Assembly: GCA_947464185.1 (NCBI GenBank)
Contig: CANHVY010000012.1
Location: 1-64,000 of the forward strand
Reading direction: 5' to 3'
From: Burkholderiales bacterium
Lineage (GTDB): Bacteria; Pseudomonadota; Gammaproteobacteria; Burkholderiales; Burkholderiaceae_C
Length of the DNA: 64,000 bases
Part shown: in pieces, positions 1,414 through 49,744 of the stretch
Layout: each line of letters starts with the position of its first letter
Numbering within the stretch: the first letter of the stretch is position 1
Program-made: the position numbers and the translations under genes
The notes under the pieces: generated by a model
Database searches by the model: none
What the model was told of the DNA's origin: nothing
Seen by the model: the letters and a program-made list of their open reading frames with translations, nothing else

Positions 1414-1422
1414 GGCGCCGTC

Positions 1423-6481: not shown

Positions 6482-6484
6482 AAT

Positions 6485-6516: not shown

Positions 6517-6525
6517 AAGCCGGCC

Positions 6526-7746: not shown

Positions 7747-8468
<722 letters not shown>

Positions 8469-8479
8469 GCGGGCCTGGG

Positions 8480-9061
8480 TTAGCGCACCAGCGTGATGCT
8501 GCGCGCCGGCCGCTTGAGCGTCACCTTGGATTGCCCCTTGGGCCCGGCCACCTGCACGTGGATGCGCTGGATGCGTTTGTAGGCGTCGAACAGGCCGAGT
8601 TCCAGGGTGCGCAGCGGCGTGGACTGGGCGCACTGGAAGGTGTAACTGGCTTCCAGGTCGGCATGTTCGCCGCCGCTTTTGTGGGCGGCCGGGGGTGAAG
8701 CTGGCGCAGTTGCTGACTTCGCTGCCGGCTTGGCGCCTGGCTCCAGCACCGGGGCTAACACCTCGGCCTTGACCAGTTGGCACTGCGCAGCAGCGTCCGG
8801 GACGAACAAGGGCGTGCCCTGCTGAGGATTCCGCAAGCGCGCCAGCACCTCTGCCGCTGCCTTGCGCTCGGCATCGGTGCGTGGCGCACGCTCGAAGCCC
8901 AGCCAGTTGTCCAGCGCCGCCACCATGTCGATGGTCAGCCTGGAACCCTCGACGCTGACGTCCAGCCGGACCACGCCATGCTCATGGGCCTTGCCGGCGT
9001 GGGCTGCAGAGGCGGCCAGGGCCATGCAGGCCACCAGAAAGCTCAGGGAGGTGCGTGCCAT
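8480..9061 (-). CDS. DUF2796 (ZrgA-type) periplasmic protein of zinc locus
   Basis: A 193-residue protein with a signal peptide (MARTSLSFLVACMALAASAAHA) and then HEHGVVRLDVSVEGSRLTIDM, the start of DUF2796. The family includes ZrgA, a zinc-uptake helper in vibrios. A Pro/Ala/Lys linker separates the N- and C-terminal strands. The start at 9061 has AGGAG five bases upstream; a second ATG lies five codons further out. It is the last gene of the leftward zinc operon, 21 bases after znuA, which supports a zinc role. Confidence 0.8.
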   Translation of the reverse strand: MARTSLSFLVACMALAASAAHAGKAHEHGVVRLDVSVEGSRLTIDMVAALDNWLGFERAPRTDAERKAAAEVLARLRNPQQGTPLFVPDAAAQCQLVKAEVLAPVLEPGAKPAAKSATAPASPPAAHKSGGEHADLEASYTFQCAQSTPLRTLELGLFDAYKRIQRIHVQVAGPKGQSKVTLKRPARSITLVR

Positions 9062-9082
9062 GGGGTCTCCTGCCAACGGGTC

Positions 9083-10006
9083 TCAGCCCTGCAGCGCAGC
9101 CACCAGGCTGCGGGCGTTGTGTTCCATCATTTTGAGGTAGCTCCCAGCCGGACCGTCGGGGCGGGACAGGGCATCGGAATACAGCTTGCCGCCGATGCGC
9201 ACGCCGCTCTCGCGCGCGATGCGCTCGATCAGCCGCGGGTCGCTGATGTTCTCGACGAACAGGGCGCGCACGCCCTCCTGCCGGATCTGCCGGATCAGCC
9301 GGGCCACAGCAGCCGCCGAGGGCTCACTGTGCGTGCTCCAACCCTGCGGCGCCAGGAAGTCGACGCCGTAGGCAGCGCCGAAGTAGCCGAAGGCGTCATG
9401 CGAGGTGATGACCCGGCGCTGGGCTCGCGGCACGGCGTCCAGCCACTGGCGAACCTGGGCGTCCAGTGCGTCGATGCGGGCGACGTACTCGCGCTGCCGG
9501 GCCTCGATCTCGTCTCGCCGCTGCGGCCAGCGTTTTGCCAGGCCCGCTGCGAGGTTGGTGGCGTAAGTGCGGGCGTTGCGCAGGTCCTGCCAGGCATGAG
9601 GGTCCTGGCCATGGTGGTGCCCGCCACGCCGGGTCTGGATGCCTGCGGTGGCTTCCACCACCGGGCCCTTGTAGCCCGAGGCCTTCACCATCCTGAGCAT
9701 CCAGCCCTCGAATCCGAGGCCGTTGACCAGCACCACGTCGGCCTGCGCCAGACGCCTGCCATCGGCCGGACTGGGGGCGTAGACGTGCGCGTCGGCATCG
9801 GGCCCCACCAGGGCCGTGATCTCCATGTCCGCCGGTGCCACTTCGCGGGCCATGTCCCCGAGGATGGAGAAGCTCGCCACCACACGCGCCGTGGGCGATG
9901 GGGCCTGGCCGAAGGCCGGGCCGATCAGGCCGGCGGCGGCGCCGCCCACCAGAACGGCGCGTCGGGAGCAGCGTGGGTTCAGCAAGGGACAGGGCGTGTT
10001 GTGCAT
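9083..10006 (-). CDS. znuA: Zinc/manganese ABC transporter substrate-binding protein
   Basis: A 307-residue cluster A-I periplasmic binding protein. The N-terminus has RRAVLVGGAAAGLIGPAFGQ, a Tat-like or Sec signal. Metal-ligand candidates are in ADAHVYAPSP, the His-rich loop RRGGHHHGQDPHAWQD, TSHDAFGYF, and a late Asp/Glu. The short His loop favours zinc. It captures periplasmic metal for the ZnuB/ZnuC pair encoded immediately upstream; znuB ends five bases before its start region. Confidence 0.88.
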   Translation of the reverse strand: MHNTPCPLLNPRCSRRAVLVGGAAAGLIGPAFGQAPSPTARVVASFSILGDMAREVAPADMEITALVGPDADAHVYAPSPADGRRLAQADVVLVNGLGFEGWMLRMVKASGYKGPVVEATAGIQTRRGGHHHGQDPHAWQDLRNARTYATNLAAGLAKRWPQRRDEIEARQREYVARIDALDAQVRQWLDAVPRAQRRVITSHDAFGYFGAAYGVDFLAPQGWSTHSEPSAAAVARLIRQIRQEGVRALFVENISDPRLIERIARESGVRIGGKLYSDALSRPDGPAGSYLKMMEHNARSLVAALQG

Positions 10007-10011
10007 GGGAG

Positions 10012-10878
10012 TCAGCGGGTGAGGTGAGTTCTGGCCAGCACGCGACGCGTGACGATGCCTTCCCTGGCGCCCAGGAGCACCGAGGCCACGTAGAAGGCGC
10101 CACAGACGAGCACGATGCAGGGGCCTGAGGGCAATTCGGCGTGGTAGCTCAGCAGCAGCCCAGCCACGCCGCTGGCGGCTGCGATGAGCACCGCGCAGGC
10201 CGCCATGGCCGGCAGACTGGCGACCCAGAATCGGGCGGCAGCGGCGGGCAGCATCATGAGGCCCACGGCCATCAGCGTGCCCAGCGCCTGGAAGGCGCTC
10301 ACCAGGTTGGCCACCAGCAGCACCAGCAGCAGCACATGCGCCGTGGCACCCGGGCCGCCCACGCTGCGCAGAAAGCCAGGGTCCGCGCTTTCCAGCACCA
10401 GGGGCCGGTACATGCCCGCCAGGGCCCACAGCGTGAGGCTGGCCACGGCGGCAATTTGCAGCAGGGCCGCGTCATCGACGGCCAGCACGCTGCCAAACAG
10501 CATGTGCATCAGGTCCACCTGGCTGCCGCGCAGCGACACCAGCAGCACACCGAGCGCCAGGGCGATGAGGTAGAACGCGGCGAAGCTTGCATCCTCTCCC
10601 TGAGGGGTTGAGCGCGTGACGAAACCTGCTGCCAGCGCCACCGCCAATGCAGCCACGAAGCCCCCCGCGCTCATGGCCGGCAGCGACATGCCCGCCAGCA
10701 GAAAGCCCGCGGCGGCACCCGGCAGCACCGCATGGGCCATGGCATCGCCCACCAGGCTCATGCGCCGCAGCACCAGCACGCAGCCGATGGGGGCGCAGCC
10801 CACCGCCAGGGCCAGCGTGGCCACCAGCGCGCGGCGCATGAAGGCGAACTCGGTGAAGGGTTCTGCCCAGCCTGTCAT
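10012..10878 (-). CDS. znuB: Metal ABC transporter permease (ZnuB-like)
   Basis: A 288-residue, strongly hydrophobic protein with about eight membrane helices and the ABC-3 family signature VLVLRRMSLVGDAMAHAVLPGA, where the GDAxxH motif contacts the ATPase. It imports metal delivered by ZnuA. Its ATG (10878) overlaps the znuC stop by four bases, so the two are translationally coupled. The C-terminal Arg-rich tail REGIVTRRVLARTHLTR is cytoplasmic by the positive-inside rule. Confidence 0.9.
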   Translation of the reverse strand: MTGWAEPFTEFAFMRRALVATLALAVGCAPIGCVLVLRRMSLVGDAMAHAVLPGAAAGFLLAGMSLPAMSAGGFVAALAVALAAGFVTRSTPQGEDASFAAFYLIALALGVLLVSLRGSQVDLMHMLFGSVLAVDDAALLQIAAVASLTLWALAGMYRPLVLESADPGFLRSVGGPGATAHVLLLVLLVANLVSAFQALGTLMAVGLMMLPAAAARFWVASLPAMAACAVLIAAASGVAGLLLSYHAELPSGPCIVLVCGAFYVASVLLGAREGIVTRRVLARTHLTR

Positions 10879-17755: not shown

Positions 17756-18700
17756 CTACGGTGACCTCGGCCCCGCCCTCGACTCCCTCCTCGCCACCCA
17801 CACCGTGGCCGCGCTGATGAGCAGGCCGCCGGCGATGGTGCTGAAGGTGGGGATGTCGGCAAACAGGGCCCAGCCCAGCAGCACGGCCCACACCAGATCC
17901 AGGAACTTGATGGACTGGGTGGCCGAGATGTCGGCGGCGACAAAAGAGCGTGTGAGGCAGTAGTGCCCGCTGCTGCCCAGCAGCCCGCAGGCCAGAAAGC
18001 CCAGCCATTGCCACGGCGTCAAGGGCTGCCACACCCACAGGGCGAGTGGCAGGCTCAGCAGGCTGATGGTCAGGGCCTGCCACACCAGGATGGTGCCCGT
18101 GGTCTCGTAGCGCGTCAGCGCCTTGATCACCAGAAACGAGGCGGCGAACAAGGGAGCGGAGGCCAGCATCAGCAGGTGGTACAGGCCCGGTCCGGCCCCG
18201 AAGCCATCGGTCAGGGACAGCTTCGGGCCCACCACCACCATCACGCCGACAAAACCGAGGGCCGTCGCGAGCCAGCGCTCCCAGCGCATGGCCTCCTTGA
18301 AGAACAGCCACGCGCCCAGCATGATGAACAGCGGTATGGTGAACCCGATGGCCGTCATGTCGGCCAGCGGAATCTTCGGCAGCGACACGAACCACAGGTA
18401 CAGCCCGGCGGTGTGCAAGCCGCCGCGCAGGAACTGCCCTCCCACCGCCTTGGGTCGGTAGGCCGCCAGGCCGTGGTGCCACACCAGCGGCAGCAGCACC
18501 AGCAAGCCAAAGAAGTAGCGCAGGAACTGCGACTGGAACGGGTCCACCTGCTGGCCCAGCCCGCGCATCAGCGCGTTCAGGAAGCTGAAGATCACCCCGG
18601 CCGCGGTGGCCCACAGCAGGCCCTGCACCGTGGGCGGCAGATGCGCCGTGCGCCGGTGCACGGCATCGTGCACGCGTCGCCAGGCGGCCTGAAGGCTCAA
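17756..18700 (-). CDS. EamA/DMT-family transporter
   Basis: About 314 residues with ten predicted membrane helices in two EamA repeats (VIFSFLNALMRGLGQQVDPF and SAPLFAASFLVIKALTRYE open the halves). The best start is a TTG at 18700 overlapping the soeC stop as TTGA; no ATG lies near. DMT proteins export metabolites such as amino acids. Coupling to soeCBA hints at exporting a product or substrate of sulfite or sulfonate metabolism, but the sequence does not show this. A GTG 20 codons later is an alternative start. Confidence 0.8.
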   Translation of the reverse strand: MSLQAAWRRVHDAVHRRTAHLPPTVQGLLWATAAGVIFSFLNALMRGLGQQVDPFQSQFLRYFFGLLVLLPLVWHHGLAAYRPKAVGGQFLRGGLHTAGLYLWFVSLPKIPLADMTAIGFTIPLFIMLGAWLFFKEAMRWERWLATALGFVGVMVVVGPKLSLTDGFGAGPGLYHLLMLASAPLFAASFLVIKALTRYETTGTILVWQALTISLLSLPLALWVWQPLTPWQWLGFLACGLLGSSGHYCLTRSFVAADISATQSIKFLDLVWAVLLGWALFADIPTFSTIAGGLLISAATVWVARRESRAGPRSP

Positions 18701-19668
18701 GACACCGCCTGGTAGTACAGGTTCTGCGGGTGGCGCGCCTGGGCGAAGAACAGCCAGCGTTCGGCCCCGATGCCGGGTACCTGGCTGGCCACGGCAGCCC
18801 ACCACAGTGCGGTGATAAGCGTCGGACCGTAGCCGGCCGAAGCGGCCCACAGCGCCGCGGCCATGAGGACTGCCGGCAAGGCGAAGCCCAGCAGGTGCAG
18901 CGCACGCCGCACCTGGGCGATGGCGGCCTGCGTGGCGCCGTGGAAGAACTCACGTGTGTTGAAGGCGCCGGCCGACATGCCCATGGACTTCTGCACCAGT
19001 CGCGGCGCCTGCAGGCCGGTGGCGGACTGCACGCTGGACTTCGGCTTCAGGCGTGCGTTGCGCCGCAGCGCCAGCGTGCGCGTGCCCCAGGCGGCCAGGG
19101 TGGCTGCCAGCGCCCGCGGGGCCCATTCGGCCAGCACCGCGCGTTCGCCCAGCGTCGCGGCCAGCGCGCACCCCAGCACCAGGCCAGTGGCCAGGCCAAT
19201 CAAGGCGAAGTTCAGCAGCGTGAGCGGATGCGCCCACTCCTGGATGAAGCGCAGGCAGGCGTAGATCTGCCCGGTGCACCACCACAGCAGGGCTGCGCCC
19301 AGCAGCGCCAGCACGGGCAGGCCTTGCGTCACCGCGCGGGATGCCGTCCACTCGGCGGGGCCCCAGCGCAGCAACGCCCCCCACAGCGCCACCACCGCCA
19401 TGAAGGCGGGCAGCACGATGACCTCACGGCTCAGCCAGGAGGTGCGCCACATGGCCATGGCACGCCAGGCGCGCTCGGGCCGGCCCAGGTGCAGGAAGGA
19501 CGCAGCCAGGCCCACCCCCAGCATCACCAGGGCCAGCAGCAGCGCGCTGGCGGTGAAGCGGGCGGACAGGGGCACGCCCGTCACAGCGGACACCGCCAGC
19601 GCCACCACCAGGCCCTGCGCAGCGCCCGCTACCGCGGTGAAGGAGATGACGGAGAAGGCGGGCTTCAC
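18697..19668 (-). CDS. soeC: SoeC-type membrane anchor of sulfite dehydrogenase
   Basis: A 323-residue DmsC/NrfD-like protein with about eight membrane helices (AAQGLVVALAVSAVTG, ALLLALVMLGVGLAASFLHLG and so on). The FLHLGRPERAWRAMAMWRTSWLSRE loop is characteristic of DmsC-type anchors that hold an A-B oxidoreductase to the inner face of the membrane and pass electrons to quinone. GTG 19668 overlaps the soeB stop as GTGA. Gene order A-B-C matches soeABC. Confidence 0.85.
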   Translation of the reverse strand: MKPAFSVISFTAVAGAAQGLVVALAVSAVTGVPLSARFTASALLLALVMLGVGLAASFLHLGRPERAWRAMAMWRTSWLSREVIVLPAFMAVVALWGALLRWGPAEWTASRAVTQGLPVLALLGAALLWWCTGQIYACLRFIQEWAHPLTLLNFALIGLATGLVLGCALAATLGERAVLAEWAPRALAATLAAWGTRTLALRRNARLKPKSSVQSATGLQAPRLVQKSMGMSAGAFNTREFFHGATQAAIAQVRRALHLLGFALPAVLMAAALWAASAGYGPTLITALWWAAVASQVPGIGAERWLFFAQARHPQNLYYQAVS

Positions 19669-20393
19669 AGGGCAGGCTCCTGTGGCGCTCTCGGCGCAGT
19701 GCCTTCGGCATGCGGGGCCACTTTGGTGGACGTGGGTGTGGCTGCGGCCGTGATCTGCCGCGGCAGGTACTGGTTGGCGGGCTGGGTCTCCCATTCCGGC
19801 ATGAGCGAGTAGCCCCCGCGCTCACGGATGGCCTTGGACACCTCGGAGTCGGGGTCCTTCACGTCGCCGAACAGGCGCGCGCCCGTCGGGCAGGCCATGA
19901 CGCAGGCGGGCTTGCGGTCTTCCGGCGCCATCTTCTCGTCGTAGATGCGGTCCACGCACAGCGTGCACTTGGTCATCACCTGGCGCTCTTCGTCCAGCTC
20001 GCGCGCGCCGTAGGGGCAGGCCCAGGCGCAGTACTTGCAGCCGATGCACTTGTCGTAATCGACCAGCACGATGCCGTCTTCCTTGCGCTTGTAACTCGCA
20101 CCCGTGGGGCACACCGGCACGCAGGGCGGGTCTTCGCAGTGCAGGCAGCTCTTGGGGAAGTGGACGGTCTCTGTACCGGGGAAGCTGCCGGCCTCCCAGG
20201 TTTGCACCCGGTTGAAGAAGGTGCCGGTGGGGTTGGCGCCATAAGCGTTCTCGTCGGCCAGCGGCCCCGCGCTGCCCGAGGTGTTCCACTGCTTGCAGGA
20301 AGTGACGCAGGCGTGGCAGCCCACGCACACGTTGAGGTCGATGACCAGGGCCAGTTGCTTGGCCAGGGTTTCGGTGGTGCCTGTGCTGCTCAT
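19665..20393 (-). CDS. soeB: SoeB-type iron-sulfur subunit
   Basis: A 242-residue DmsB-like ferredoxin subunit with 16 or so cysteines in four 4Fe-4S groups: CVGCHACVTSCKQW, CLHCEDPPCVPVC, CIGCKYCAWACPYG and CTLCVDRI...CVMACPTGA. There is no signal peptide, so it faces the cytoplasm. It relays electrons from the molybdopterin subunit to the membrane anchor. The N-terminal LALVIDLNVCVGCHACVTSC and NTSGSAGPL resemble SoeB of sulfur oxidisers. The Pro/Thr-rich tail is variable. It overlaps its neighbours by four bases on both sides. Confidence 0.9.
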   Translation of the reverse strand: MSSTGTTETLAKQLALVIDLNVCVGCHACVTSCKQWNTSGSAGPLADENAYGANPTGTFFNRVQTWEAGSFPGTETVHFPKSCLHCEDPPCVPVCPTGASYKRKEDGIVLVDYDKCIGCKYCAWACPYGARELDEERQVMTKCTLCVDRIYDEKMAPEDRKPACVMACPTGARLFGDVKDPDSEVSKAIRERGGYSLMPEWETQPANQYLPRQITAAATPTSTKVAPHAEGTAPRAPQEPAL

Positions 20394-23350
20394 CGAGCCT
20401 TCCTCCCCGCAAAGTACGTCAACACTTTCTGCGCCCGTCCCAGCACCCCAGGTGCTGGGGGATTGGCCTTGACCTGCGGAAAAGTTTCCTCGGGTTCTGC
20501 CGGGTCGGCCGGGCGGATGCGCACCCGCACGTCGTACCAGCCGGCTTGCCCGGTGATGGGGTCGGAGTTGCTGATGGTGCCCGCGGATTGGCCGTCGCCG
20601 TCGGTCAGCGGCAGTTCCTCGCTGATCAGGTGGTTCAGCAGGAAGCCCTTGCGCGATTCGTCGGCGCCCGCCTCCAACTGCCAGGCGCCGCTGGCCTTGC
20701 CGATCGCGTTCCAGGTCCACACCGTGCCGGGTTCCACCGCCTCGCTGTGGCGCACCATGCAGCGCACCTTCCCCCAGCGGCTTTCCACCCAGCACCAGCC
20801 ACCGTCGGCAATGCCCGCGGCCAGGGCCGTGACCGGGTTCACATGCAGGTAGTTGTGGCTGTGGATCTGGCGCAGCCAGGCGTTCTGCGAATCCCAGGAG
20901 TGGTACATCGCCATGGGCCGCTGGGTGATGGCGTTCAGCGGGTAGGCCTCCAGGTCGCTGCAGGCGGATTCCAGCGGCGGGTACCAGAAGGGCAGGGGGT
21001 CGAAATAGGTGGCGATGCGTTCGCGCAGATGCTCAGGCGGCTGGCGGCCGGTGGTCTTGCCTTGTGCGGCCAGGCGAAAACTCTGCAGCACATCGGAGTA
21101 GATCGCCAGTTGCACCGGGTCGTTCTTCTGGCGCCAGCCCTTGTCCTTGGCGAAGTCCAGGTAGGCCTGGTTCCAGTTGCGCATGTACTGCTGGTCTTCG
21201 CGCAGGTGGTACTGGAAGACGCAGCCGTTCTTTTCGTACATCTCCCACTGCTTTTGGTTGGGCGCGCCGCGCAGGTGCTCGGTGCCGTTCTCCCCGCGCC
21301 AGCCCATCAGAAAGCCGATGTCCGGTGCGGGCTGGAAGTTGACGATGAAGTCCGGGTAGTCCTTGAACTTGCGCGCGCCTTCGGCGCCCGTGAAGGCCGG
21401 GAACTTCAGACGCGAGGCCAGCTCGATCAGCACCTCCTGGAAGGGCTTGCACTGGCCCAGCGGCGGCACCACCGGCACGCGCACCGAGTCCACCGGCCCG
21501 TCGAACTCGCTGATCGGGCGGTCCAGCATGCTCATCACGTCATGCCGCTCGAGGTAGGTGGTGTCGGGCAGTACCAGGTCGGCGTAGGCCACCATCTCGC
21601 TCTGGAAGGCGTCGCACACCACCAGGAAGGGGATCTGGTACTCGCCGTCCTCGCCCCGCCGGTTCAGCATCTCGCGCACGGCCATGGTGTTCATGGTGGA
21701 GTTCCACGCCATGTTCGCCATGAAGATCATCAGCGTGTCCAGCCGGTAAGGGTCGGCCTTGACCGCGTTGGTGATCACGTTGTGCATCATCCCGTGGGCG
21801 GACAGTGGGTGCTCCCACGAGAAGGCGTGGTCGATGCGGATGGGCGAGCCATCGGCATGGATGGCCAACTCTTCCGGGCTGGCGGGAAACCCCAGCGGCG
21901 CGGCGTTCAGCGGCGTGTTGGGCTTGACCTGCTCGGGGTCGTTGAAGGCCCGGTAGTTGGGCACGATGTGGCGCGGGTAGGGCGCCTTGTGCCTGAATCC
22001 TCCAGGCCGGTCGATGGTGCCCAGCAGGCTCATCATCACCGCCAGCGAGCGCACGGTCTGGAAGCCGTTGGAGTGCGCCGCCAAGCCGCGCATGGCGTGG
22101 AAGGCCACGGGTCTGCCGATGGTGGTGGGGTGGGTCTTGCCCCAGGCGTCGGTCCATGCGATGGGCAGCTCGAAGGCCTGCTTCAGCGCCGTGTCGCCGA
22201 TCTCCACGGCCAGCGCGCGGATGCGGTCTGCGGCGATGCCGGTGATGCTTTGCGCCCACTCGGGCGTGCAGTGGGCCACCTGCTGCGTGAGCAGTTGGAA
22301 GGCCGGCGCCACACGGGTGCCGTCAGCGAGCGTGTAGGTGCCGGTGAGCGCCGGGCTGCGGCCCTCGGCGATGCCCTCGGGGTAGGCTGCCACCACCTGG
22401 CCTGAGACGCTGTCCCACACCAGCTTGTTGTGCGGGTTCCGGCCGTCGCCCGGCGGGCCCTTGGCCGGGTCCGGGTCGAAGGCGAACAGGCCCTCTCGCT
22501 CACCTTCGTCCAGCACCACCAGCTGCGGGGCGTTGGTGAAGCGCTGCAGGAAGGGGTGGTCGATGCGGTCGTGCTTGATCAGCTCGTGCATCAGCGCCAT
22601 GAAGAGCGCGCCGTCGGTGCCCGGCTTGATGGGAATCCACTCGTCGGCAATGGCCGAGTAGCCCGTGCGCACCGGGTTGATGGAGATGAAGCGCCCGCCG
22701 CGCCGCTTGAAGGCCGACAGGGCCATCTTCATCGGGTTGCTGTGGTGGTCCTCGGCCGTGCCGATCATCACGAAGAGCTTGGCATGGTCCAGGTCCGGCC
22801 CGCCGAACTCCCAGAAGCTGCCGCCCACCGTGTAGATCATGCCCGCGGCCATGTTGACCGAGCAGAAGCCGCCGTGTGCGGCGTAGTTGGGCGTGCCGAA
22901 CTGGCGCGCGAACAGGCCGGTGAGGGCCTGCATCTGGTCGCGCCCGGTGAAGAGGGCGAACTTCTTCGGGTCCGTGGCGCGGATACGGCCCAGGCGCTCG
23001 GTGAGGATGGCGAAGGTCTCGTCCCAGGAGATGGGCTCGAACTCGCCAGCCCCGCGCTCGGCGCCGGGCTTGCGCCGCAGCGGCTGCGTCAGGCGCGCGG
23101 GCGACACCTGCTTCATGATGCCCGAGCTGCCCTTGGCGCAGATCACGCCCTTGTTGATGGGGTGGTCGGGGTTGCCGTCGATGTAGCGCACCTCGGGGCC
23201 GTTCTCGCCCTGGCGCAGGTGCACGCGAATGCCGCAGCGGCAGGCACACATGTAGCAGGTGGTGCACTTGACCTCCGTGGCTCCGGTGCCTGCGTCCGCC
23301 AGTGGGGCCAGCGGGTCGTGCAGGGGAGGGCTTGCGCTGAACAGGGCCAT
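20390..23350 (-). CDS. soeA: SoeA-type molybdopterin sulfite dehydrogenase, catalytic subunit
   Basis: A 986-residue bis-MGD oxidoreductase. An N-terminal cysteine cluster (VKCTTCYMCACRCGIRV, residues about 27-43, plus C in GVICAKGSSG near 70) binds 4Fe-4S; MGD-binding regions follow and the molydopterin dinucleotide domain is near the end. There is no Tat signal, as in SoeA and unlike periplasmic DMSO or thiosulfate reductases. SoeABC oxidises cytoplasmic sulfite to sulfate with quinone as acceptor. GGAG sits nine bases before ATG 23350. Location beside xsc, which releases sulfite, supports this function over polysulfide or DMSO reduction. Confidence 0.88.
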   Translation of the reverse strand: MALFSASPPLHDPLAPLADAGTGATEVKCTTCYMCACRCGIRVHLRQGENGPEVRYIDGNPDHPINKGVICAKGSSGIMKQVSPARLTQPLRRKPGAERGAGEFEPISWDETFAILTERLGRIRATDPKKFALFTGRDQMQALTGLFARQFGTPNYAAHGGFCSVNMAAGMIYTVGGSFWEFGGPDLDHAKLFVMIGTAEDHHSNPMKMALSAFKRRGGRFISINPVRTGYSAIADEWIPIKPGTDGALFMALMHELIKHDRIDHPFLQRFTNAPQLVVLDEGEREGLFAFDPDPAKGPPGDGRNPHNKLVWDSVSGQVVAAYPEGIAEGRSPALTGTYTLADGTRVAPAFQLLTQQVAHCTPEWAQSITGIAADRIRALAVEIGDTALKQAFELPIAWTDAWGKTHPTTIGRPVAFHAMRGLAAHSNGFQTVRSLAVMMSLLGTIDRPGGFRHKAPYPRHIVPNYRAFNDPEQVKPNTPLNAAPLGFPASPEELAIHADGSPIRIDHAFSWEHPLSAHGMMHNVITNAVKADPYRLDTLMIFMANMAWNSTMNTMAVREMLNRRGEDGEYQIPFLVVCDAFQSEMVAYADLVLPDTTYLERHDVMSMLDRPISEFDGPVDSVRVPVVPPLGQCKPFQEVLIELASRLKFPAFTGAEGARKFKDYPDFIVNFQPAPDIGFLMGWRGENGTEHLRGAPNQKQWEMYEKNGCVFQYHLREDQQYMRNWNQAYLDFAKDKGWRQKNDPVQLAIYSDVLQSFRLAAQGKTTGRQPPEHLRERIATYFDPLPFWYPPLESACSDLEAYPLNAITQRPMAMYHSWDSQNAWLRQIHSHNYLHVNPVTALAAGIADGGWCWVESRWGKVRCMVRHSEAVEPGTVWTWNAIGKASGAWQLEAGADESRKGFLLNHLISEELPLTDGDGQSAGTISNSDPITGQAGWYDVRVRIRPADPAEPEETFPQVKANPPAPGVLGRAQKVLTYFAGRKAR

Positions 23351-23439
23351 GCTGAACTGTCTCCATTCTGTTGCCGTCATCGATGCCGACGGTCTTGTTC
23401 GTGGTCAAAGTCCTGAGCAGGCGACAGTCGCCTTGGGTC

Positions 23440-24292: not shown

Positions 24293-25417
24293 TCAGGCCA
24301 CCCCAGTCAACCGCGCCGTATGCCCGGCGATCACGGCTTCCTCGCCTGTGCGCAGCACCAGGGCCTGCACGTTGCTGTCGACAGTGCTGATGCGCCCGGG
24401 CGGACGCTGGAGGTTGGCCTCCGCATCCAGCCGCAGCCCCAGCCATCGGGCACCGTCGAGGAGGCGTGCACGGATGGCCGCGGCGTTCTCGCCGATGCCG
24501 CCAGTGAACACCAGGGCGTCCAGCCCGCGCAGCGCTGCGGCCAGCGCGGCGAGTTCGCGCAGTACCTGTTCGACAAAGTGGTCCAGCGCGCGCTGCGCAC
24601 CGGCATGGCCGGCGGCGGCCGCAGCTTCCAGTTCACGCATGTCACTGGACAACCCGGACAGCCCCAGCAGCCCCGAGCCCTTGTGCAGCAGCCGCGACAC
24701 CTCCTCGGCGCTGAACCCTTCCTGCTGCTGCAGGTGCAGCACCACGGCGGCGTCCAGCCGACCGCAGCGCGTGCCCATGGTCAGGCCGTCCAGCGGCGAG
24801 AAACTCATCGTCGTGGCCACAGAGCGGCCGTCGCGGACTGCCGTCATCGAGCAGCCATTGCCCAGGTGAGCGATCACCACGCGGCCGGCGGCCAGCTCAG
24901 GGTGATGCTGGCGCAGTTGGGCGGTGATCGACTCGTAGCTCAAGCCGTGGAAACCGTAGCGACGGATGCCGCGCTGGAACAGGTCGTCAGGCAGCGCGAA
25001 GCGCTGATGCACCTCGGGCATGGTGCGGTGGAAGGCGGTGTCGAAGCACGCCACCTGCGGCACGCTGGGGAACGCTTCCTGCGCCGCCCGCACGCCGGCC
25101 AGGTTGTGGGGCTGGTGAAGGGGGGCCAGGCTGGTCAGGCGCTCGATGCCTTGCAGCACGTCGTCATCGATCAGGCGGGGCTGGTCGAACTGCGTGCCGC
25201 CATGCACGATGCGGTGGCCCACCGCGGTGATGGGCGTGTTGCCGATCCGCTCCATCACCTGCCGCAGGGCCTGGGCGTGGTCTGCCGGGCCGCTGCGGGT
25301 GCCGATGCCGTCCACCTGGCCGGCTTGCTGCGGCGTGTGCAGACCTGTCGCCGGGTCGAACAAGGCGAACTTGATCGACGAGGAGCCGGCGTTGAGGGTG
25401 AGCAGGTGGCCGGTCAC
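24293..25417 (-). CDS. ackA: Acetate kinase
   Basis: A 374-residue ASKHA-fold acetate kinase of slightly short but normal length. It starts MTGHLLTLNAGSSSIKFALF, carries AVGHRIVHGG, VACFDTAFH, RRYGFHGLSYE and VIAHLGNGCSM, and FTGGIGENAAAIRARL. It makes ATP and acetate from acetyl phosphate and ADP, or the reverse. It is the nearest downstream gene to xsc, whose product is acetyl phosphate, so it most likely completes sulfoacetaldehyde use with ATP gain, in place of the phosphotransacetylase often found beside xsc. Confidence 0.95.
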   Translation of the reverse strand: MTGHLLTLNAGSSSIKFALFDPATGLHTPQQAGQVDGIGTRSGPADHAQALRQVMERIGNTPITAVGHRIVHGGTQFDQPRLIDDDVLQGIERLTSLAPLHQPHNLAGVRAAQEAFPSVPQVACFDTAFHRTMPEVHQRFALPDDLFQRGIRRYGFHGLSYESITAQLRQHHPELAAGRVVIAHLGNGCSMTAVRDGRSVATTMSFSPLDGLTMGTRCGRLDAAVVLHLQQQEGFSAEEVSRLLHKGSGLLGLSGLSSDMRELEAAAAAGHAGAQRALDHFVEQVLRELAALAAALRGLDALVFTGGIGENAAAIRARLLDGARWLGLRLDAEANLQRPPGRISTVDSNVQALVLRTGEEAVIAGHTARLTGVA

Positions 25418-26084: not shown

Positions 26085-27905
26085 TCAGGTGTAGTCCTTG
26101 TACTTGTCCAGGAAGCGCACCGGCTTGGACAGTGCATCGCGGCGGAACGGGTCACCCAATTCGCGCGTGCACATGATCTCGATCACGCAGGTCTTGCGCT
26201 GGTTCATCTGCAGGTCGATGGCGCGCCGGAGTGCCGGGCCCACGTCCTCCAGCTTGTCGACCGTGATGCCCTCGGCGCCCATGGCGCGTGCGATGCCGGC
26301 GAAGCTCTCGCTCTCCAACTCGCCCGCCACGAAGCGTCGGTTGTAGAAGTCCACCTGGTTCTTCTTCTCCGCACCCCACTGCCGGTTGTGGAACACCACC
26401 GCGGTCACGGGGATGTCGTGGCGCACGGCGGTCATGATCTCGCTCATGCTCATGCCCCAGGCGCCGTCTCCGGCGTAGGACACCGCCGGGCGGTCGGGGC
26501 GGGCCACCTTGGCGCCGATGATGGTGGGCAGGGCGTAGCCGCAGTTGCCGAAGCTCATGGGCGCGAAGAAGCTGCGCGGCTCCTCGAATCGCAGGTAGCT
26601 GTGCGCCACGGAGTTGATGTTGCCGATGTCGGTGGACACCATCACGTGCGCCGGCATGGCCTTTTCCAGCTCGCGCAGCACCTGGCGCGGGTGCAGCCAC
26701 TGGCCGCCCGTGGGCGTCTTCTCGCCCTTGGCCTCTTCGATCATGTCCAGGCTGTAGGCGTCCTTCTCGTGCGTCCATTCGGAGAGTTCCTTCTCCCAGG
26801 CGGCCTTTTCCTCAGCCGTCTTGGCGGCTCGCTCGGCGCGCGTGGCGTCGCAGGCCAGCGTGCGGCCGGCCAGACGCTCCAGTAGCGCCAGCGCGGCGGC
26901 CTTGGCGTCGCCGCAGATGCCCACGTCCACCTTCTTCACCAGGCCCAGCATCTTGGCGTCGGCGTCGATCTGCACCAGCTTGGCACCCTTGGGCCAGTAG
27001 TCCATGCCGTACTGCGGCAGCGTGCCGAAGGGCCCCAGGCGGGTGCCCAGGGCGATGACCACGTCGGCCTGCGCAATCAGCCGCATGCCGGCCTTGCTGC
27101 CCTGGTAGCCGAGCGGGCCGCACCACTGCGGGTGGCTGGCCGGGAAGCTGTCGTTGTGCTGGTAGCTGTTGACCACCGGGCAGCCGATGCGCTCGGCCAG
27201 CGCAATGGCTTCCTTGAAGGCGTCGCCCATCACCACCCCACCGCCAGAGATCATCACCGGGAACCTGGCGCTGGCGATCAGGTCGGCCGCCGCGTTCAGG
27301 CTTTCCACGCCGCCCGCGCCGCGCTCGATGCGGATGGGCTTGGGGATCTCCACCGTGATGTCGCCGTAGAACAGGTCGCGCGGGATGTTGAGCTGCGTCG
27401 GGCCCATCTCCAGCAGCGCGCGATCGAAGGCCCGCGCGGTGAGTTCGGCCATGCGCTTGCTGTTCGAGACATGCGCCTGGTACTTGGTGAACTCGGCAAA
27501 CATCGGCAGCTGCGCCGCCTCCTGAAAGCCGCCCAGGCCCTGGGTGAGCGTGCCCGTCTCGGGGGTGATCACCACCACCGGGCTGTGCGCCCAATAGGCC
27601 GCGGCAATGGCGGTCACGGCGTTGCTGATGCCCGGGCCGTTCTGGCCAATGATCACGCCGTGGCGGCCGCTGACGCGCGAGTAGCCGTCGGCCATGTGGC
27701 CGGCGCCCTGCTCATGCACCACCGGAATCAGGCGGATGCCGGCGGGCGCGAAGATGTCCATCGCGTCCATGAAGGCCGAGCCCATGATGCCGAACATGGT
27801 GTCCACGCCCTGCGCGACCATGGTCTCCACAAAGGCCTCGGAGGGCGTCATGCGGGTGGGGCCCACGGGGACGGTGCGGGCAGCGATGGGTTGCGGAGCG
27901 TTCAT
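26085..27905 (-). CDS. xsc: Sulfoacetaldehyde acetyltransferase
   Basis: A 606-residue ThDP-dependent enzyme of normal Xsc length. It opens with MTPSEAFVETMVAQGVDTMF and IMGSAFMDAMDIFAPAGIRL, carries VVHEQGAGHMADGYSR (catalytic Glu), and has the ThDP site GDGAWGMSMSEIMTAVRHDI near the end; it finishes PVRFLDKYKDYT as Xsc proteins do. It converts sulfoacetaldehyde and phosphate to acetyl phosphate and sulfite in the cytoplasm. Its neighbours ackA and soeABC can consume both products. The divergent IclR gene is its likely regulator. No taurine-pyruvate aminotransferase or Tau transporter gene lies nearby. Confidence 0.93.
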   Translation of the reverse strand: MNAPQPIAARTVPVGPTRMTPSEAFVETMVAQGVDTMFGIMGSAFMDAMDIFAPAGIRLIPVVHEQGAGHMADGYSRVSGRHGVIIGQNGPGISNAVTAIAAAYWAHSPVVVITPETGTLTQGLGGFQEAAQLPMFAEFTKYQAHVSNSKRMAELTARAFDRALLEMGPTQLNIPRDLFYGDITVEIPKPIRIERGAGGVESLNAAADLIASARFPVMISGGGVVMGDAFKEAIALAERIGCPVVNSYQHNDSFPASHPQWCGPLGYQGSKAGMRLIAQADVVIALGTRLGPFGTLPQYGMDYWPKGAKLVQIDADAKMLGLVKKVDVGICGDAKAAALALLERLAGRTLACDATRAERAAKTAEEKAAWEKELSEWTHEKDAYSLDMIEEAKGEKTPTGGQWLHPRQVLRELEKAMPAHVMVSTDIGNINSVAHSYLRFEEPRSFFAPMSFGNCGYALPTIIGAKVARPDRPAVSYAGDGAWGMSMSEIMTAVRHDIPVTAVVFHNRQWGAEKKNQVDFYNRRFVAGELESESFAGIARAMGAEGITVDKLEDVGPALRRAIDLQMNQRKTCVIEIMCTRELGDPFRRDALSKPVRFLDKYKDYT

Positions 27906-31699: not shown

Positions 31700-32221
31700 T
31701 CAGGCCACCATCGAGTGCGCGAGGGCAAACACCGAGTTGGGCGCCCGGGTGCGCACCGGCTTGACCACAGGGGCGGCCGAGATCCCGAGCCTGTGGGATG
31801 GCAACTCGATCTTCACGCCCTTGTCGATCTGTTCCTGGGCCAGGCTGGCCAGCGTGATGGTCGACATGTGCCGCAGCATGACATCGTGCAACTGTCGCCA
31901 GAGGTCTCGAGAGAAGTCCGTGGACGTGGACTCACCGTGCGTGTCGGCTGCCAGGTCCTCCACCGGGTCGTCCACCGCCGAGACGATCTGCGCCACCGAG
32001 ATCTCGCGGGCGTCACGCCCCAGTCGGTAGCCGCCGCCGGGCCCGCGGGCGCTTTCCACCAGACCGTCACGGCGGAGGTGGCTGAACAATTGTTCCAGGT
32101 ACGACAGCGACACCTGCCGCCGCTTGCTGATGGACCCCAAGGACACGGGGCCCCGTGGCGCGTGCAGGGCCAGGTCGATCAGTGCCGCCACAGCTACTCG
32201 GCCTTTGGTGCTCATCCGCAT
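31700..32221 (-). CDS. Rrf2-family regulator (IscR-like, no cysteines)
   Basis: A 173-residue regulator starting MRMSTKGRVAVAALIDLALH, with the Rrf2 winged helix (SLSYLEQLFSHLRRDGLVES and GPGGGYRLGR). It is close to IscR along its length but the region that holds three Fe-S cysteines in IscR reads VEDLAADTHGESTSTDFSRD; in fact the whole protein has no cysteine. It therefore cannot bind an Fe-S cluster in the IscR manner. AGGA lies seven bases before ATG 32221. It faces nhaR across 105 bases. Confidence 0.85.
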   Translation of the reverse strand: MRMSTKGRVAVAALIDLALHAPRGPVSLGSISKRRQVSLSYLEQLFSHLRRDGLVESARGPGGGYRLGRDAREISVAQIVSAVDDPVEDLAADTHGESTSTDFSRDLWRQLHDVMLRHMSTITLASLAQEQIDKGVKIELPSHRLGISAAPVVKPVRTRAPNSVFALAHSMVA

Positions 32222-32284
32222 GGTGCTTTCCTTTCGGGGTTGAACGAAGAGTGGCGCGACTTTAGGATTGCGCATGATTCGAGT

Positions 32285-32296
32285 AAATTCGAATTT
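32285..32296. promoter_or_regulatory. Perfect 12-base palindrome AAATTCGAATTT
   Basis: The palindrome lies between the Rrf2-like gene and nhaR, 42 bases before the nhaR start. A half-copy ATTCGA begins ten or so bases upstream. Either regulator could bind here. It stands out because the surrounding sequence is GC-rich. Confidence 0.4.
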
Positions 32297-32326
32297 CAAT
32301 CGTTTGTACTTCGAGAAAAACGCATC

Positions 32327-33226
32327 ATGGGTGTCAACTTCAAGCACTTGCATTACTTCTGGGTGGCCGCCAAGGCAGGGGGCGTGGTGCGGGCTGGCGA
32401 GCAGTTGCACACCACGCCGCAGACGCTGTCGAGCCAGATCAAGCTGCTCGAAGACCGCCTGGGCCGGAGGCTGTTTCGCAAGAGCGGTCGCAAGCTTGAG
32501 CTCACCGAAGACGGGCGGGTGGCCCTTCGTTACGCCGAAGAAATCTTCGGCCTTGGCAGCGAACTGGAAGCGGCCATGCGCGAGCGGCGCAGCGGCGGTG
32601 GCGAGGTGCTGGAGTTTCGTGTCGGCATCGAGGATGCGGTGGCCAAGTCCGTGGCCTACATGCTGCTGGAACCTGCACTGGCGCTGGCGCAGCCCATGCG
32701 GCTGATCTGCACCGAGGGTCGTTTCGATGACCTGCTCGCGCAGCTGGCGCTGCACCGCATGGACCTGGTGATCGCCGACGAGCCGCTGCCCCGCGGGCTG
32801 GCGGTGAAGGCCTACAACCACGTGCTGGGCAGTTCGTCGATGAGCTTCTTCTGCGCCCCGGCGCTGGCTCGGCAGCTGGAGGGTCCGTTTCCCGAATGCC
32901 TGAACGATGTGCCCATGCTGATTCCCAGCGCCCAGTCGACGGTGCGTTCGCAGGTCGAGTCCTGGTTGACCTTGCACGGCCTGCGTCCCCGCATCGTGGG
33001 CGAATTCGATGATGGTGCGCTGATGAAGGCCTTCGGTCGCGAGGGGCGCGGCGTCTTCATCTCCCCCAGCGCCGTCGAGCAGCAGACATGCGCGCAATAC
33101 GACGTGCAGGTCATCGGCCGCAGCAGCGAACTGGTCGAGCAGTTCTACGCGATCTCGGTGGAGCGGCGCATCTCGCACCCGGGCGTGGCGGCCATCACAC
33201 AGGCGGCGCGCGCCACCTTGCTGTGA
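32327..33226 (+). CDS. nhaR: LysR-family regulator, NhaR-like
   Basis: A 299-residue LysR protein. The N-terminal helix-turn-helix (FKHLHYFWVAAKAGGVVRAG, then TTPQTLSSQIKLLEDRLGRR) is the NhaR variant, with HYFW and SGRKLELTEDG. The effector domain follows (EFRVGIEDAVAKSVAYMLLE). NhaR activates sodium/proton antiporter or surface-polysaccharide genes in enterobacteria. No nhaA is nearby, so its target here is unknown. The start at 32327 was chosen by family alignment; the frame is open far upstream. Confidence 0.85.
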   Translation: MGVNFKHLHYFWVAAKAGGVVRAGEQLHTTPQTLSSQIKLLEDRLGRRLFRKSGRKLELTEDGRVALRYAEEIFGLGSELEAAMRERRSGGGEVLEFRVGIEDAVAKSVAYMLLEPALALAQPMRLICTEGRFDDLLAQLALHRMDLVIADEPLPRGLAVKAYNHVLGSSSMSFFCAPALARQLEGPFPECLNDVPMLIPSAQSTVRSQVESWLTLHGLRPRIVGEFDDGALMKAFGREGRGVFISPSAVEQQTCAQYDVQVIGRSSELVEQFYAISVERRISHPGVAAITQAARATLL

Positions 33227-46226: not shown

Positions 46227-46706
46227 CTACACCTCTCGCATCAGCCTGCCCAGGTCATTCGAATCGATCTTCTCCAGCAGCCGGGTCAGCGATTCGGCGT
46301 TCTTCTCATCCTCCGTGCTCGCCAAGGCGTCGAGCAAGACCTCGCGGATCTGGTCGGGTGTCACCAGTTCCATGCTCCAGTCTGGAAAGAGACGCTCCTG
46401 GACCTCTTCGTTTTGGCTCAGCATGACAACTTCATCGTGACGGGGATCGCGCCTGATCCGGGCCATCAACCCGGTGATGTGGTCCCGTGGGCCTTCCAAC
46501 CACTGGAAGAACACCCCACTGCCAAACACCAGCAAGCCCGTGATGCCCTGCCTGGGATTGGTACGCCGGGCCGTGGCCACGATGTGGTCCACGACCGAGT
46601 CGTCCACCTCGCGGGCTGCGCGGCTGCAGTACACCGCCTGATGCAGCAGCGGCAGTTGGGGGCCGGGGCCAGGCTCGTCGCCCTGACGGAGATGCTGTGC
46701 GCTCAT
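46227..46706 (-). CDS. BLUF-domain blue-light sensor
   Basis: A 159-residue single-domain BLUF protein. Flavin-site residues are visible: Tyr in QAVYCSRA, Asn in RRTNPRQGITGLLVF, Gln in GVFFQWLEGP, and the Trp/Met pair in PDWSMEL. After the domain come about 50 helical, acidic residues (PDQIREVLLDALASTEDEK) with no enzyme, so it acts by protein contact. GGAG stands nine bases before ATG 46706. It sits head-to-head with the suyAB genes and just upstream of an ABC exporter. Confidence 0.9.
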   Translation of the reverse strand: MSAQHLRQGDEPGPGPQLPLLHQAVYCSRAAREVDDSVVDHIVATARRTNPRQGITGLLVFGSGVFFQWLEGPRDHITGLMARIRRDPRHDEVVMLSQNEEVQERLFPDWSMELVTPDQIREVLLDALASTEDEKNAESLTRLLEKIDSNDLGRLMREV

Positions 46707-46908
46707 GGGGCGTGTCTCCAGAAGATGCCACGCAGTGCGTCGTGAGCGCTGCAAGACTTCCAGGATAGCGCACACCTGCGGCGGCAGCGGCCTTCGGGGT
46801 CAGCTGCTGACGGAATTTTGCTTCCGATGGATTGACGCCCGCGAACCCGCCTGCCGATACTGGGCGCCGGACCTGCCGCGGGCAGGAGGTGTGGATCAGG
46901 AGCAAGCG

Positions 46909-47190
46909 ATGAATCACTTCGTGTTGCACGACGCGAACGACTGCGTGGCAGTCGTGGTCGTGGAAGGGGTCAAGGCCGGCATGGCCTTGAACGGCTGGAT
47001 CATGGACGAGGACCGGATGGTCACGCTGCAGGCGCAGCAGGACATCCCCATCGGTCACAAGGTGGCGCTCAAGGACATGAGCCCGGGCGACACCGTCGTC
47101 AAGTACGGCATCGACATGGGGCGCGTGGTCGCGCCCATCAAGGCGGGCGAGCACGCCCATGTCCACAACATCAAGACCAAGCGGTGGTGA
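46909..47190 (+). CDS. suyA: (R)-sulfolactate sulfo-lyase small subunit, SuyA-like (SAF domain)
   Basis: A 93-residue SAF domain ([20 protein letters not shown], later [20 protein letters not shown] and [15 protein letters not shown]). This is the N-terminal module of UxaA hydro-lyases, here as a separate chain. A split SAF plus large chain is the SuyAB arrangement; altronate dehydratase is normally one polypeptide of about 495. SuyAB cleaves sulfolactate to pyruvate and sulfite. The call over altronate or galactarate dehydratases rests on the split, the ComC-like remnant downstream and the xsc/soe genes in the window. Confidence 0.75.
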
Positions 47191-47195
47191 ATCCC

Positions 47196-48371
47196 ATGAG
47201 CGTCATCGACAAGAACACCACCTTCCTCGGCTACCGCCGCGAGAACGGCCGCGTGGGCGTGCGCAACCACGTCATCATCCTGCCGCTGGACGACCTGTCC
47301 AACGCTGCCAGCGAGGCCGTGGCCCACAACATCAAGGGCTCCATGGCCATCCCGCACCCGTACGGGCGCCTGCAGTTCGGGGCCGACCTGGACCTGCACT
47401 TCCGCACGCTGATCGGCACGGGCTGCAACCCCAACGTGGCGGCGGTGGTGGTCATCGGCATCGAGGACGGCTGGACCAAGAAGGTGGTGGACGGCATCGC
47501 CGCCACGGGCAAGCCCGTGGTGGGCTTCGGCATCGAGGGCCATGGCGACCACGACACCATCATGCGCGCCAGCAAGGCGGCGCGCGAGTTCGTGCAGTGG
47601 GCCAGCGAGAAGCAGCGCGAGGTCTGCCCGCTGCACGAGCTGTGGGTGTCCACCAAATGCGGCGAGAGCGACACCACCAGCGGTTGCGGGGCCAACCCCA
47701 CCGTGGGCAACGCCTTCGACAAGCTGCACGCCCTGGGCAGCTACCTGTGTTTTGGCGAGACCACCGAACTCACGGGCGGCGAGCACATCGTGGCCGCGCG
47801 CTGCGCCACCGACGCCGTGCGCGAGAAGTTCATGTTCATGTTCAACCGCTACCAGGCGGTGGTGGACCGCCACAAGACCTCGGATCTCTCTGAAAGCCAG
47901 CCTACCAAGGGCAACATTGCCGGCGGCCTCACCACCATCGAGGAGAAAGCGCTGGGCAACATCCAGAAGATCGGCAAGAGCTGCACGGTGGACGGCGTGA
48001 TCGACAAGGCCGAGATGCCCACCCACCCGGGCCTGTGGTTCATGGATTCGTCCTCGGCCGCGGCCGAGATGGTGACCTTGTGCGCAGCCTCCGGCTACGC
48101 GGTGCACTTCTTCCCCACGGGGCAGGGCAACGTGATCGGCAACCCCATCGTGCCGGTGATCAAGATCTGCGCCAACCCCCGCACCGTGCGCCTGATGAGC
48201 GAACACATCGACGTGGACAGTTCCGGCCTGCTGCAGCGGCAGATCACGCTGGACCAGGCCGGGGACCTGCTGTTGGAGAACATGCTGCGCACCGCCAACG
48301 GGCGGCTGACCGCGGCCGAAGCCCTGGGGCACCGGGAGTTCGTGCTGACGCGTCTGTACGAGTCTGCATGA
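47196..48371 (+). CDS. suyB: (R)-sulfolactate sulfo-lyase large subunit, SuyB-like
   Basis: A 391-residue UxaA-family C-terminal domain: [20 protein letters not shown] at the start, [20 protein letters not shown] (Cys/Asp/Glu metal site) in the middle, and [20 protein letters not shown] with [20 protein letters not shown] near the end. It needs the SAF subunit encoded just upstream. Predicted to eliminate sulfite from sulfolactate in the cytoplasm, leaving pyruvate. Three Cys in the KCGE...GCG...LCAA regions may hold Fe. Its TGA is directly followed by the dehydrogenase remnant. Confidence 0.78.
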
Positions 48372-48587
48372 ATGGGGGGCTTGGGCTTCGCCAATTTCCC
48401 GGCTGCCATGCCGGCGGCAGGGGGGCGCCACCCGATCTTCGGCACCAACCCGGTGGCGGCCATCTTCCCGCGGCGCGGCGCCGCCCCGCTGATGATCGAC
48501 CTGAGCCTGTCTGAAGTGGCGCGCGGCAAGCTGATGGTGGCCGCGCAGCAGGGCCCCACGCCGCAGGGCCCGCAGGCGGCGGCTTGA
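48372..48587 (+). pseudogene. Remnant of a ComC/Ldh2-type malate/sulfolactate dehydrogenase
   Basis: A 71-codon frame starts right after the suyB stop. GGLGFANFPAAMPAAGGRHP and IFGTNPVAAIFPRRGAAPLM then IDLSLSEVARGKLMVAAQQG match the central part of Ldh2/MDH2-type NAD(P)H dehydrogenases (normally about 340 residues). The N- and C-terminal thirds are missing and the frame ends in unrelated PQGPQAAA. ComC of this family oxidises (S)- or reduces to (R)-sulfolactate beside suyAB in other bacteria, so this is most likely a decayed comC. Confidence 0.75.
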
Positions 48588-48592
48588 GCGCC

Positions 48593-49498
48593 ATGACCCG
48601 CCCCGTCAACATCCTGGGTGTCGGCCACGTGGCGCTGGACCACCAGTTCAGCATCCAGGCGTTTCCCGAGCATCCTGCCAAGACGCCTGCCCACGGCTAC
48701 CGCAGCGGTGTGGGTGGCATGACGGCCAATGCCTGCGTGGCGGCGGCCCGCCTGGGCGCCCATGTGCGCATCGCCAGCCCGGTGGGCGACGATGCTTTGG
48801 CGCCGTTCATCGAGGCTCATTTCCGTCAAGAAGGCGTGGACCCGGGCGGGCTCGTTCGCGTGGCCGGCGCGCACAGTTCGGTGGCGGCCGTCATCGTCGA
48901 TGCGCAGGGTGAGCGCCTGATCGTCAGTCACCGCGGTGATGCCCTGCGGCTGGCCCCTGCTTTGGACGCCGCGCAGGTCGATGCGGCCGACGTGCTGCTG
49001 ACCGACCCGCGCTGCCCGGCCTGGGCCCAGGCCGCGCTTGAAAGAGCCCGCGCGCTGCGCCGCCTGTCCATCCTGGACGGCGATGCTGCGCCCCGGCAGG
49101 ACCTGCAGCGGCTGGTCGGCCTGAGCGCCTGGGCGGTGTTTTCCCGGCCGGGCCTGCAAGCCTTTGAGCCGGGGACGGTGGAGCAAGGCCTGGCAGCGGC
49201 CCTGGCGGCCGGGGCCGAGGTGGCAGTGGTGACGCAGGATGACCAGCCGATGTGGTGGCAGCGTCGCGGCGGGCCGTTGCGCGGCCTGCCGTCGTTCGTC
49301 GTGCAGCCCGTGGTGGACACCACCGCAGCGGGCGACACCTTCCACGGCGCCCTGGCCGTGGCCCTGGGTGAAGGGGCCGCTGACGAAGATGCACTTCGAT
49401 TCGCGGCCGCTGCAGCTGCGCTGAAGTGCCTGCAGCCCGGGGGTATCGCCGGTGCCCCCCGCCGCGAACAGGTCCGGGCCTTGCTCGCAGCCTCCTGA
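48593..49498 (+). CDS. PfkB-family carbohydrate kinase, YihV-like
   Basis: A 301-residue ribokinase-fold kinase. Features: GVGGMTANACVAAARLGAHV near the start, SILDGDAAPRQDLQRLVGLS in the middle, and the phosphate-transfer motif VVDTTAAGDTFHGALAVALG (catalytic Asp in AAGD). From memory, LDGD...AFSEPGL-like, DTTGAGDVFHGALAVAL and AALKCTRPGGRAGIP stretches occur in E. coli YihV, the sulfofructose kinase, and this protein follows that pattern. Sulfofructose as substrate is inference. A TTG at 48584 overlaps the remnant's stop and is an alternative start. Confidence 0.78.
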   Translation: MTRPVNILGVGHVALDHQFSIQAFPEHPAKTPAHGYRSGVGGMTANACVAAARLGAHVRIASPVGDDALAPFIEAHFRQEGVDPGGLVRVAGAHSSVAAVIVDAQGERLIVSHRGDALRLAPALDAAQVDAADVLLTDPRCPAWAQAALERARALRRLSILDGDAAPRQDLQRLVGLSAWAVFSRPGLQAFEPGTVEQGLAAALAAGAEVAVVTQDDQPMWWQRRGGPLRGLPSFVVQPVVDTTAAGDTFHGALAVALGEGAADEDALRFAAAAAALKCLQPGGIAGAPRREQVRALLAAS

Positions 49499-49620
49499 GG
49501 CACCTGCATCGGCCTGGCCTGAGCCGCGCCGCCGGAGTGAAACGCACCCCCAGCGCCGGCTGGCACTGGCCGCGCCTTTGCCTACCGGCGGTTTAGGGCA
49601 CTTTTGGGCCACCAAAGCGA

Positions 49621-49669: not shown

Positions 49670-49744
49670 TGGTGGGCGGTGCAGGGTTCGAACCTGCGAC
49701 CCCTGCCGTGTGAAGGCAGTGCTCTACCGCTGAGCTAACCGCCC
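49670..49744 (-). tRNA. tRNA-Val(CAC)
   Basis: On the minus strand the sequence starts GGGCGGTTAGCTCAGCGGTA, has an anticodon stem-loop CTGCC-TTCACAC-GGCAG with CAC at the anticodon, T-arm GCAGGTTCGAACCCTGC, and closes with ACCGCCC then ACCA, so CCA is encoded. All stems pair. It reads GTG valine codons. Confidence 0.95.

Follow-up and report, generated by a model that had tools for sequence, protein, structure and literature searches.

SuyAB, the (R)-sulfolactate sulfo-lyase, releases sulfite from (R)-sulfolactate in an iron-dependent reaction, and clusters in which suyAB stands together with slcC and comC have been described from Chromohalobacter and Paracoccus. YihV is the sulfofructose kinase of the sulfo-EMP pathway. 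The available parts of two papers give (R)-sulfolactate as the substrate of SuyAB and describe SlcC and ComC as converting the (S) form into the (R) form (PMC11382572, PMC9594981). As far as the available text of one of them goes, SuyAB is one of three sulfolyase routes for sulfolactate, HpsN makes (R)-sulfolactate from (R)-DHPS, and the cluster of Cupriavidus pinatubonensis JMP134 is published as hpsRNOUPsuyAB (PMC11382572). A further relevant system is sulfofucose cluster 2 of Paracoccus wurundjeri. As far as the accessible text shows, it is complete, with an Entner-Doudoroff set, and besides suyAB, slcC and comC it holds a gene with a threonine dehydrogenase annotation, a kinase of family PF00294 and an aldolase of family PF01791; sulfofucose did not induce this kinase or this aldolase, and no role has been demonstrated for them (PMC12421959).

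The window, by which we mean the whole stretch of 64,000 nucleotides that was analysed, has just suyAB, a scar of comC and a kinase gene to set against that cluster, and the likeness between the two is by family name only. In the hps-suyAB locus of C. pinatubonensis HN-2 (L140), as in the window, no slcC or comC was found within the stretch, but there suyAB is immediately preceded by hpsN, hpsO, an MFS transporter and a dehydrogenase, and the window has none of these in that place. A racemase-free hps-suyAB layout exists in C. pinatubonensis. With the suyAB-slcC-comC clusters, which make up 58 of the 80 loci assessed below, the window shares suyAB and the comC family, but slcC is absent from it and just 61 of the 338 residues of ComC are left. 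The enzyme is of an already known kind, and the interest of the locus is in how the cluster got pared down. Our reading, to which we give a probability of about 0.7, is that an intact and selected SuyAB, seated in what is left of a larger sulfonate cluster, would cleave (R)-sulfolactate and only this form, that an HpsN-like dehydrogenase encoded on another contig (C76) would supply the substrate, that the sulfite would pass to an SoeABC-like complex, and that the kinase is a leftover.

The remnant and its parent cluster

All features of the remnant lie on the forward strand. The genes for the small and the large subunit of the lyase, suyA (46909..47190, 93 residues) and suyB (47196..48371, 391 residues), are both intact, with a further GTG start upstream of suyB, at 47184, that is also open. 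They are followed by the comC scar (48372..48554), which covers ComC residues about 132-192 of 338 and lacks both gene ends and all of slcC, and by a full-length gene for a YihV-like kinase of the PfkB family (48593..49498, 301 residues). On the other side of the kinase, a tRNA-Val gene on the opposite strand (49670-49744) is followed by a TetR-type regulator gene.

In the closest relative found (G011) the order is suyA, suyB, slcC, comC, a phosphodiesterase-type gene (c-di-GMP), hpsR, TRAP, hpsN, hpsO, two zinc dehydrogenases, a YihV-like kinase, a LacD-like aldolase, tctC, sauS and an AMP-binding ligase. Genes for DHPS, for sulfolactate and for sulfoacetate are here united in a single run with the kinase and the aldolase, and SauS scores 772.8 bits against a cut-off of 600. 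The two halves of this cluster lie on contigs C618 and C343 (L114 and L132), which share an exact end of 141 bases, as neighbouring contigs in a k-mer assembly do; the genome is listed at 7% contamination. A run of hpsN, hpsO, two dehydrogenases, kinase and aldolase is also present in G070, and at locus L090 it stands directly upstream of suyAB. Of this parent cluster, suyAB, part of comC and the kinase remain in the window.

The YihV-like kinase

The kinase matches PF00294 (E 4.6e-44), its homology to other kinases begins at the ATG at 48593 and not at 48584, and it carries the catalytic motif DTTAAGD, of the GAGD type. Among solved structures the sulfofructose kinase 7ag6 matches it best (E 6.9e-45), followed by 2rbc, a sugar kinase without an assigned substrate, and by ribokinases, and the window kinase is 38% identical to E. 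coli YihV, all of which agrees with the YihV-like kinase recognised in the original prediction. Since it is full length and has a dN/dS of 0.23 against the kinase of the G011 hps cluster (78% identity), it looks not decayed but still constrained.

The sulfonate contacts of YihV, which we take to be Lys27, Asn109 and Arg138 (Sharma et al. 2021), are not all present. The Lys27 and Arg138 positions are kept, as they are in all 19 other aligned sequences, YihV included, but the Asn109 position holds Ser. The window kinase and YihV therefore have in common the family, the catalytic motif and two of these three contacts, and differ in the third and in that no aldolase partner was found for the window kinase. 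The G011 kinase, its closest relative, has Asn at this position. So do seven of the eight distinct kinases from loci that also hold suy or hps genes (the exception, at L090, has His), three of the five accompanied by the aldolase in a stretch that lacks suyAB and hpsN, and none of the three with neither kind of neighbour, although these counts are of few and related sequences and take no account of kinship.

A search with the cluster-type aldolase gave no match in the window's own draft genome, and the same search was positive in 9 of 60 genomes of the genus, in all of which a YihV-like kinase is nearby, directly adjoining the aldolase in eight. A search for the YihS-type isomerase (PF07221) was empty as well, yet among 14 controls it found only Caulobacter and Bacteroides and missed E. 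coli, whose YihS is annotated, so that its empty result carries no weight. A role in sulfofructose metabolism is not supported here because of the absence of a cluster-type aldolase match together with the change of Asn109 to Ser, and the earlier suggestion that the sulfolactate might come from sulfoquinovose breakdown finds no support in this genome.

It could still be argued that the kinase is a working kinase of sulfofructose or another sulfosugar and that the window continues to feed sulfosugar carbon to SuyAB. The closest solved structure, the two kept contacts, the dN/dS and the constant company of kinase and aldolase in the nine genomes would all suit such a role, as would the sugar-type ABC importer and the GabD-type and MR_MLE-type enzymes that accompany the pair in one genome (G001), but this genome is one of the 51 in 60 that miss the aldolase and its kinase has Ser where the sulfonate-binding Asn would be, and we consider this quite unlikely. 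The reading of the kinase as a remnant of the old cluster, whose former substrate was probably a sulfosugar or a related compound, seems to fit better.

The recurring module of kinase, aldolase and dehydrogenase in or near the sulfonate clusters of the genus is the part that we find worth following. Six genomes of the genus (L167-L172) have a YihV-like kinase, 39-47% identical to E. coli YihV, together with a LacD-like aldolase. In G001 the kinase stands with the importer and enzymes named above, an SDR and an aldolase, a neighbourhood that resembles cluster 2 of P. wurundjeri as far as the available description of that cluster goes and by family names only. In G002 a YihT-like aldolase (53%) sits between the kinase and the LacD-like aldolase. 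The accessible parts of the literature name no shown substrate for the kinase-aldolase pair of sulfonate clusters. We speculate, and regard it as possible though on the doubtful side, that a module of YihV-like kinase, LacD-like aldolase and second zinc dehydrogenase, wired into the DHPS, sulfolactate and sulfoacetate (sauS) clusters of the genus, feeds a sulfosugar into sulfolactaldehyde, and that the window is a collapsed remnant of it which would have kept SuyAB for (R)-sulfolactate and dropped racemase and aldolase, with a constrained kinase that may be shifting its substrate through loss of the sulfonate-binding Asn.

The comC scar and the loss of slcC

The scar is recognisable by its match to positions 132-190 of 333 of the PF02615 profile (48372-48587, E 1.1e-15) and by 90% identity to ComC residues 132-192; like the domain match of the kinase, its E-value is far beyond chance. 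No full-length Ldh_2 fold is left for ComC. Window positions 46897-48371 align to contig C618 of G011 at 93.8%, with homology starting just 12 bases before suyA, and positions 48372-48544 align to the G011 comC at 85.5%, but 1391 bases further along, with slcC in between. Because the two alignment blocks lie this far apart, slcC and the front of comC are absent here, and the back part of comC is missing from the window too. The original prediction was right to see a decayed comC in this Ldh2-type remnant and had missed slcC; a loss of comC alone is rejected, the two having gone together. A deletion or a recombination would have brought suyB up against the middle part of comC, and this part up against the kinase.

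Against the G011 comC the scar has a dN/dS of 0.05 (59 codons) and a dS of 0.82; most of the divergence therefore arose while comC was still constrained. Synonymous divergence from the same genome is much lower for suyA (0.15), suyB (0.28), cobS (0.36) and cobT (0.32) than for the scar and the kinase (0.69), the excess over suyB having a Fisher P of 0.0005 for the scar and 7e-8 for the kinase. A plain deletion from a G011-like cluster does not explain all of this, because the dS of scar and kinase exceeds that of the other four genes, and recombination with the cluster of another lineage is likely to lie behind the raised values.

To place the scar among other loci, 91 suyB-bearing loci were gathered from named contigs (the best 80 of 588), annotated plasmids, stretches of the genus and the window, leaving out the short repeat stretches L003-L020, L118, L122 and L152. 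Eleven were too short to judge, and the 80 assessed are at most 78 independent ones, L073 and L135, and likewise L084 and L120, being from the same genomes. Both slcC and comC are present in 58, nine have comC without slcC, nine are without comC (three of these with hpsN and hpsO nearby), in three the stretch ends within comC, and the window is the one locus with an 18% fragment; in 67, comC coverage exceeds 80% of the gene length. Absence of comC is uncommon yet known, and, the three end-cut genes aside, the stump is unique within this set. When 60 genomes of the genus were searched with window positions 48300-49600, the window's own genome alone spanned the scar among the matches listed, and the others matched pieces of the query. 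The flanking genes, one at 46227-46775 and the TetR-type gene, both have relatives in four of 60 genomes (G003, G014, G071 and G083), always on different contigs, and hence give no information on an empty site for an island between them.

The scar is known from a single assembly, and this assembly is a draft of 169 contigs, 95.94% complete. A chimeric contig, with slcC and comC intact in the cell, would fit a draft of this kind, would fit the 67 loci that keep comC, and would account for the jump in synonymous divergence at the join of suyB and comC; such an artefact needs two joins within about 220 bases, and an Ldh_2 search of the whole assembly gives only the scar fragment and two distant genes, which makes it improbable.

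These two Ldh_2 genes are only 29 and 33% identical to ComC, so that the search for a ComC elsewhere, proposed in the original prediction, did find members of the family in this draft assembly but none of them close. For SlcC the best matches in the 169 contigs reach just 30-34%. A replacement SlcC or ComC in the own genome is accordingly rejected for want of a close match in the draft assembly, with the caution that genes missing from a draft of this contig number and completeness are not proof of absence. One of the Ldh_2 genes, on contig C26, scores 262.6 bits on the sulfolactate dehydrogenase model, above the 202.7 bits of the G011 ComC, and by this score it could conceivably stand in for ComC; the model is useless as a test here because the ComC of the G011 cluster fails its cut-off of 500 too.

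With the scar taken as real, the SlcC-ComC racemase would be gone from the locus and, because of this loss, the SuyAB of the window would be limited to (R)-sulfolactate. It had been proposed that losing comC rewires the pathway to take sulfolactate directly. The loss narrows the range of substrate instead, because SuyAB uses the (R) form directly in any case, and SlcC and ComC serve to convert the (S) form. The observation on the sequence was right and slightly understated, and this genome gives no backing to a rewiring towards sulfosugars. Since the racemase was lost here while the lyase stayed under selection, whether (R)-sulfolactate by itself suffices can be tested directly.

The lyase pair, its supply and the fate of sulfite

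Compared with the UxaA-family pair that closes the C. pinatubonensis hps cluster, SuyA and SuyB show 72% and 86% identity, the match of SuyA spanning all 93 residues, and they have the split UxaA-type architecture of a small SAF-like and a large GD_AH subunit. SuyB carries both galactarate/altronate dehydratase domains in Pfam searches (PF04295 and PF20629); SuyA has no Pfam match at E 0.01 and aligns with the N-terminal part of the model for galactarate dehydratase (E 3.1e-07). Against G011, suyA has 95.7% identity, a dN/dS of 0.13 and a dS of 0.15, and suyB 98.5%, 0.035 and 0.28; because of these dN/dS values both genes look to be under selection.

Comparison with altronate and galactarate dehydratases in a tree, the check suggested at the outset, sets SuyB apart from E. 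coli GarD and UxaA. Of its 36 rows, 21 form a clade with support of 100/100, in which it stands with Burkholderiales SuyBs, those of Paracoccus versutus and Sinorhizobium mexicanum and that of Cupriavidus, L140, L141 and L142 being among the rows, and outside this clade fall GarD, UxaA and 13 other UxaA-family proteins of relatives, several of them long-branched. The clade is clear; its placement in the wider family is unsure because the branches to the outsiders are long. A split galactarate or altronate dehydratase is a very improbable identity for the pair, even though the domain families are the same and the sole NCBIfam match of the pair is to galactarate dehydratase (147 bits against a cut-off of 730.85), and we rejected it on the tree and on identity (86% to the hps-cluster SuyB and 29% to E. 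coli GarD), hps, slcC, comC or sulfate-exporter-type genes being found near the homologues as well. The identification of SuyAB therefore stands. Among the own genome and 60 relatives, 41 of 61 have any SuyB match and 17 have one of at least 80%.

On a contig of G029 (C369, L137, 537-3700) a UxaA protein of the galactarate dehydratase type is grouped with an Ldh_2 protein and a YihV-like kinase, no sulfonate genes being found there, and because of this case the trio by itself is not proof of a sulfonate pathway.

If SuyAB acts as predicted, it would convert (R)-sulfolactate into pyruvate and sulfite. The most likely supplier of (R)-sulfolactate is the predicted HpsN-like dehydrogenase on contig C76, encoded beside cuyA, cuyB and a taurine-type importer; the compound might instead be taken up from the surroundings or come from a substitute for ComC, of which the Ldh_2 gene on C26 is an example. 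The C76 protein is 59-63% identical to cluster HpsNs. A cluster-type HpsN was not found in the own draft genome, which gave only this 59% type and a weaker HisD-like match on C1; of the 60 genomes of the genus, 16 have one at 76% identity or more, a number that includes G011, from which the query was taken. The neighbourhood on C76 (L151, own genome G000, 1052-10707) has CuyB and CuyA with the HpsN-like dehydrogenase and a taurine-type ABC importer. CuyA, the D-cysteate sulfo-lyase, scores 560.2 bits (cut-off 450), the cysteate racemase CuyB 248 bits (cut-off 190), and the taurine-like binding protein, at 267.9 bits, stays short of its cut-off of 304.25. In G011 the HpsN-like and cuyA genes have close counterparts, both on a single contig, with dS values of 0.09 and 0.14.

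On the reverse strand of the window, xsc (26085..27860, with an approximate start in a frame open as far as 28838) encodes a sulfoacetaldehyde acetyltransferase well above the curated cut-off (TIGR03457, 1012.9 bits against 676.4). The two routes of C-S cleavage originally claimed, through SuyAB and Xsc, hold for the window but undercount the genome, which with CuyA appears to encode three C-S lyases, that is, all three lyases of the sulfolactate routes. The sulfite could be handled by a putative SoeABC-like complex, encoded at 18697..23380 on the reverse strand as a molybdopterin oxidoreductase with ferredoxin-type and DmsC/NrfD-type subunits; its large subunit reaches no NCBIfam cut-off, and the SoeABC label describes the layout only. 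Near xsc, also on the reverse strand, is a gene for an acetate kinase-type protein (24293..25417, TIGR00016, 364.5 bits against 293.4). Between 24293 and 33226 these ackA- and xsc-type genes adjoin cobS- and cobT-type genes, and the protein encoded at 31715-33226 exceeds the cut-off of the NhaR model.
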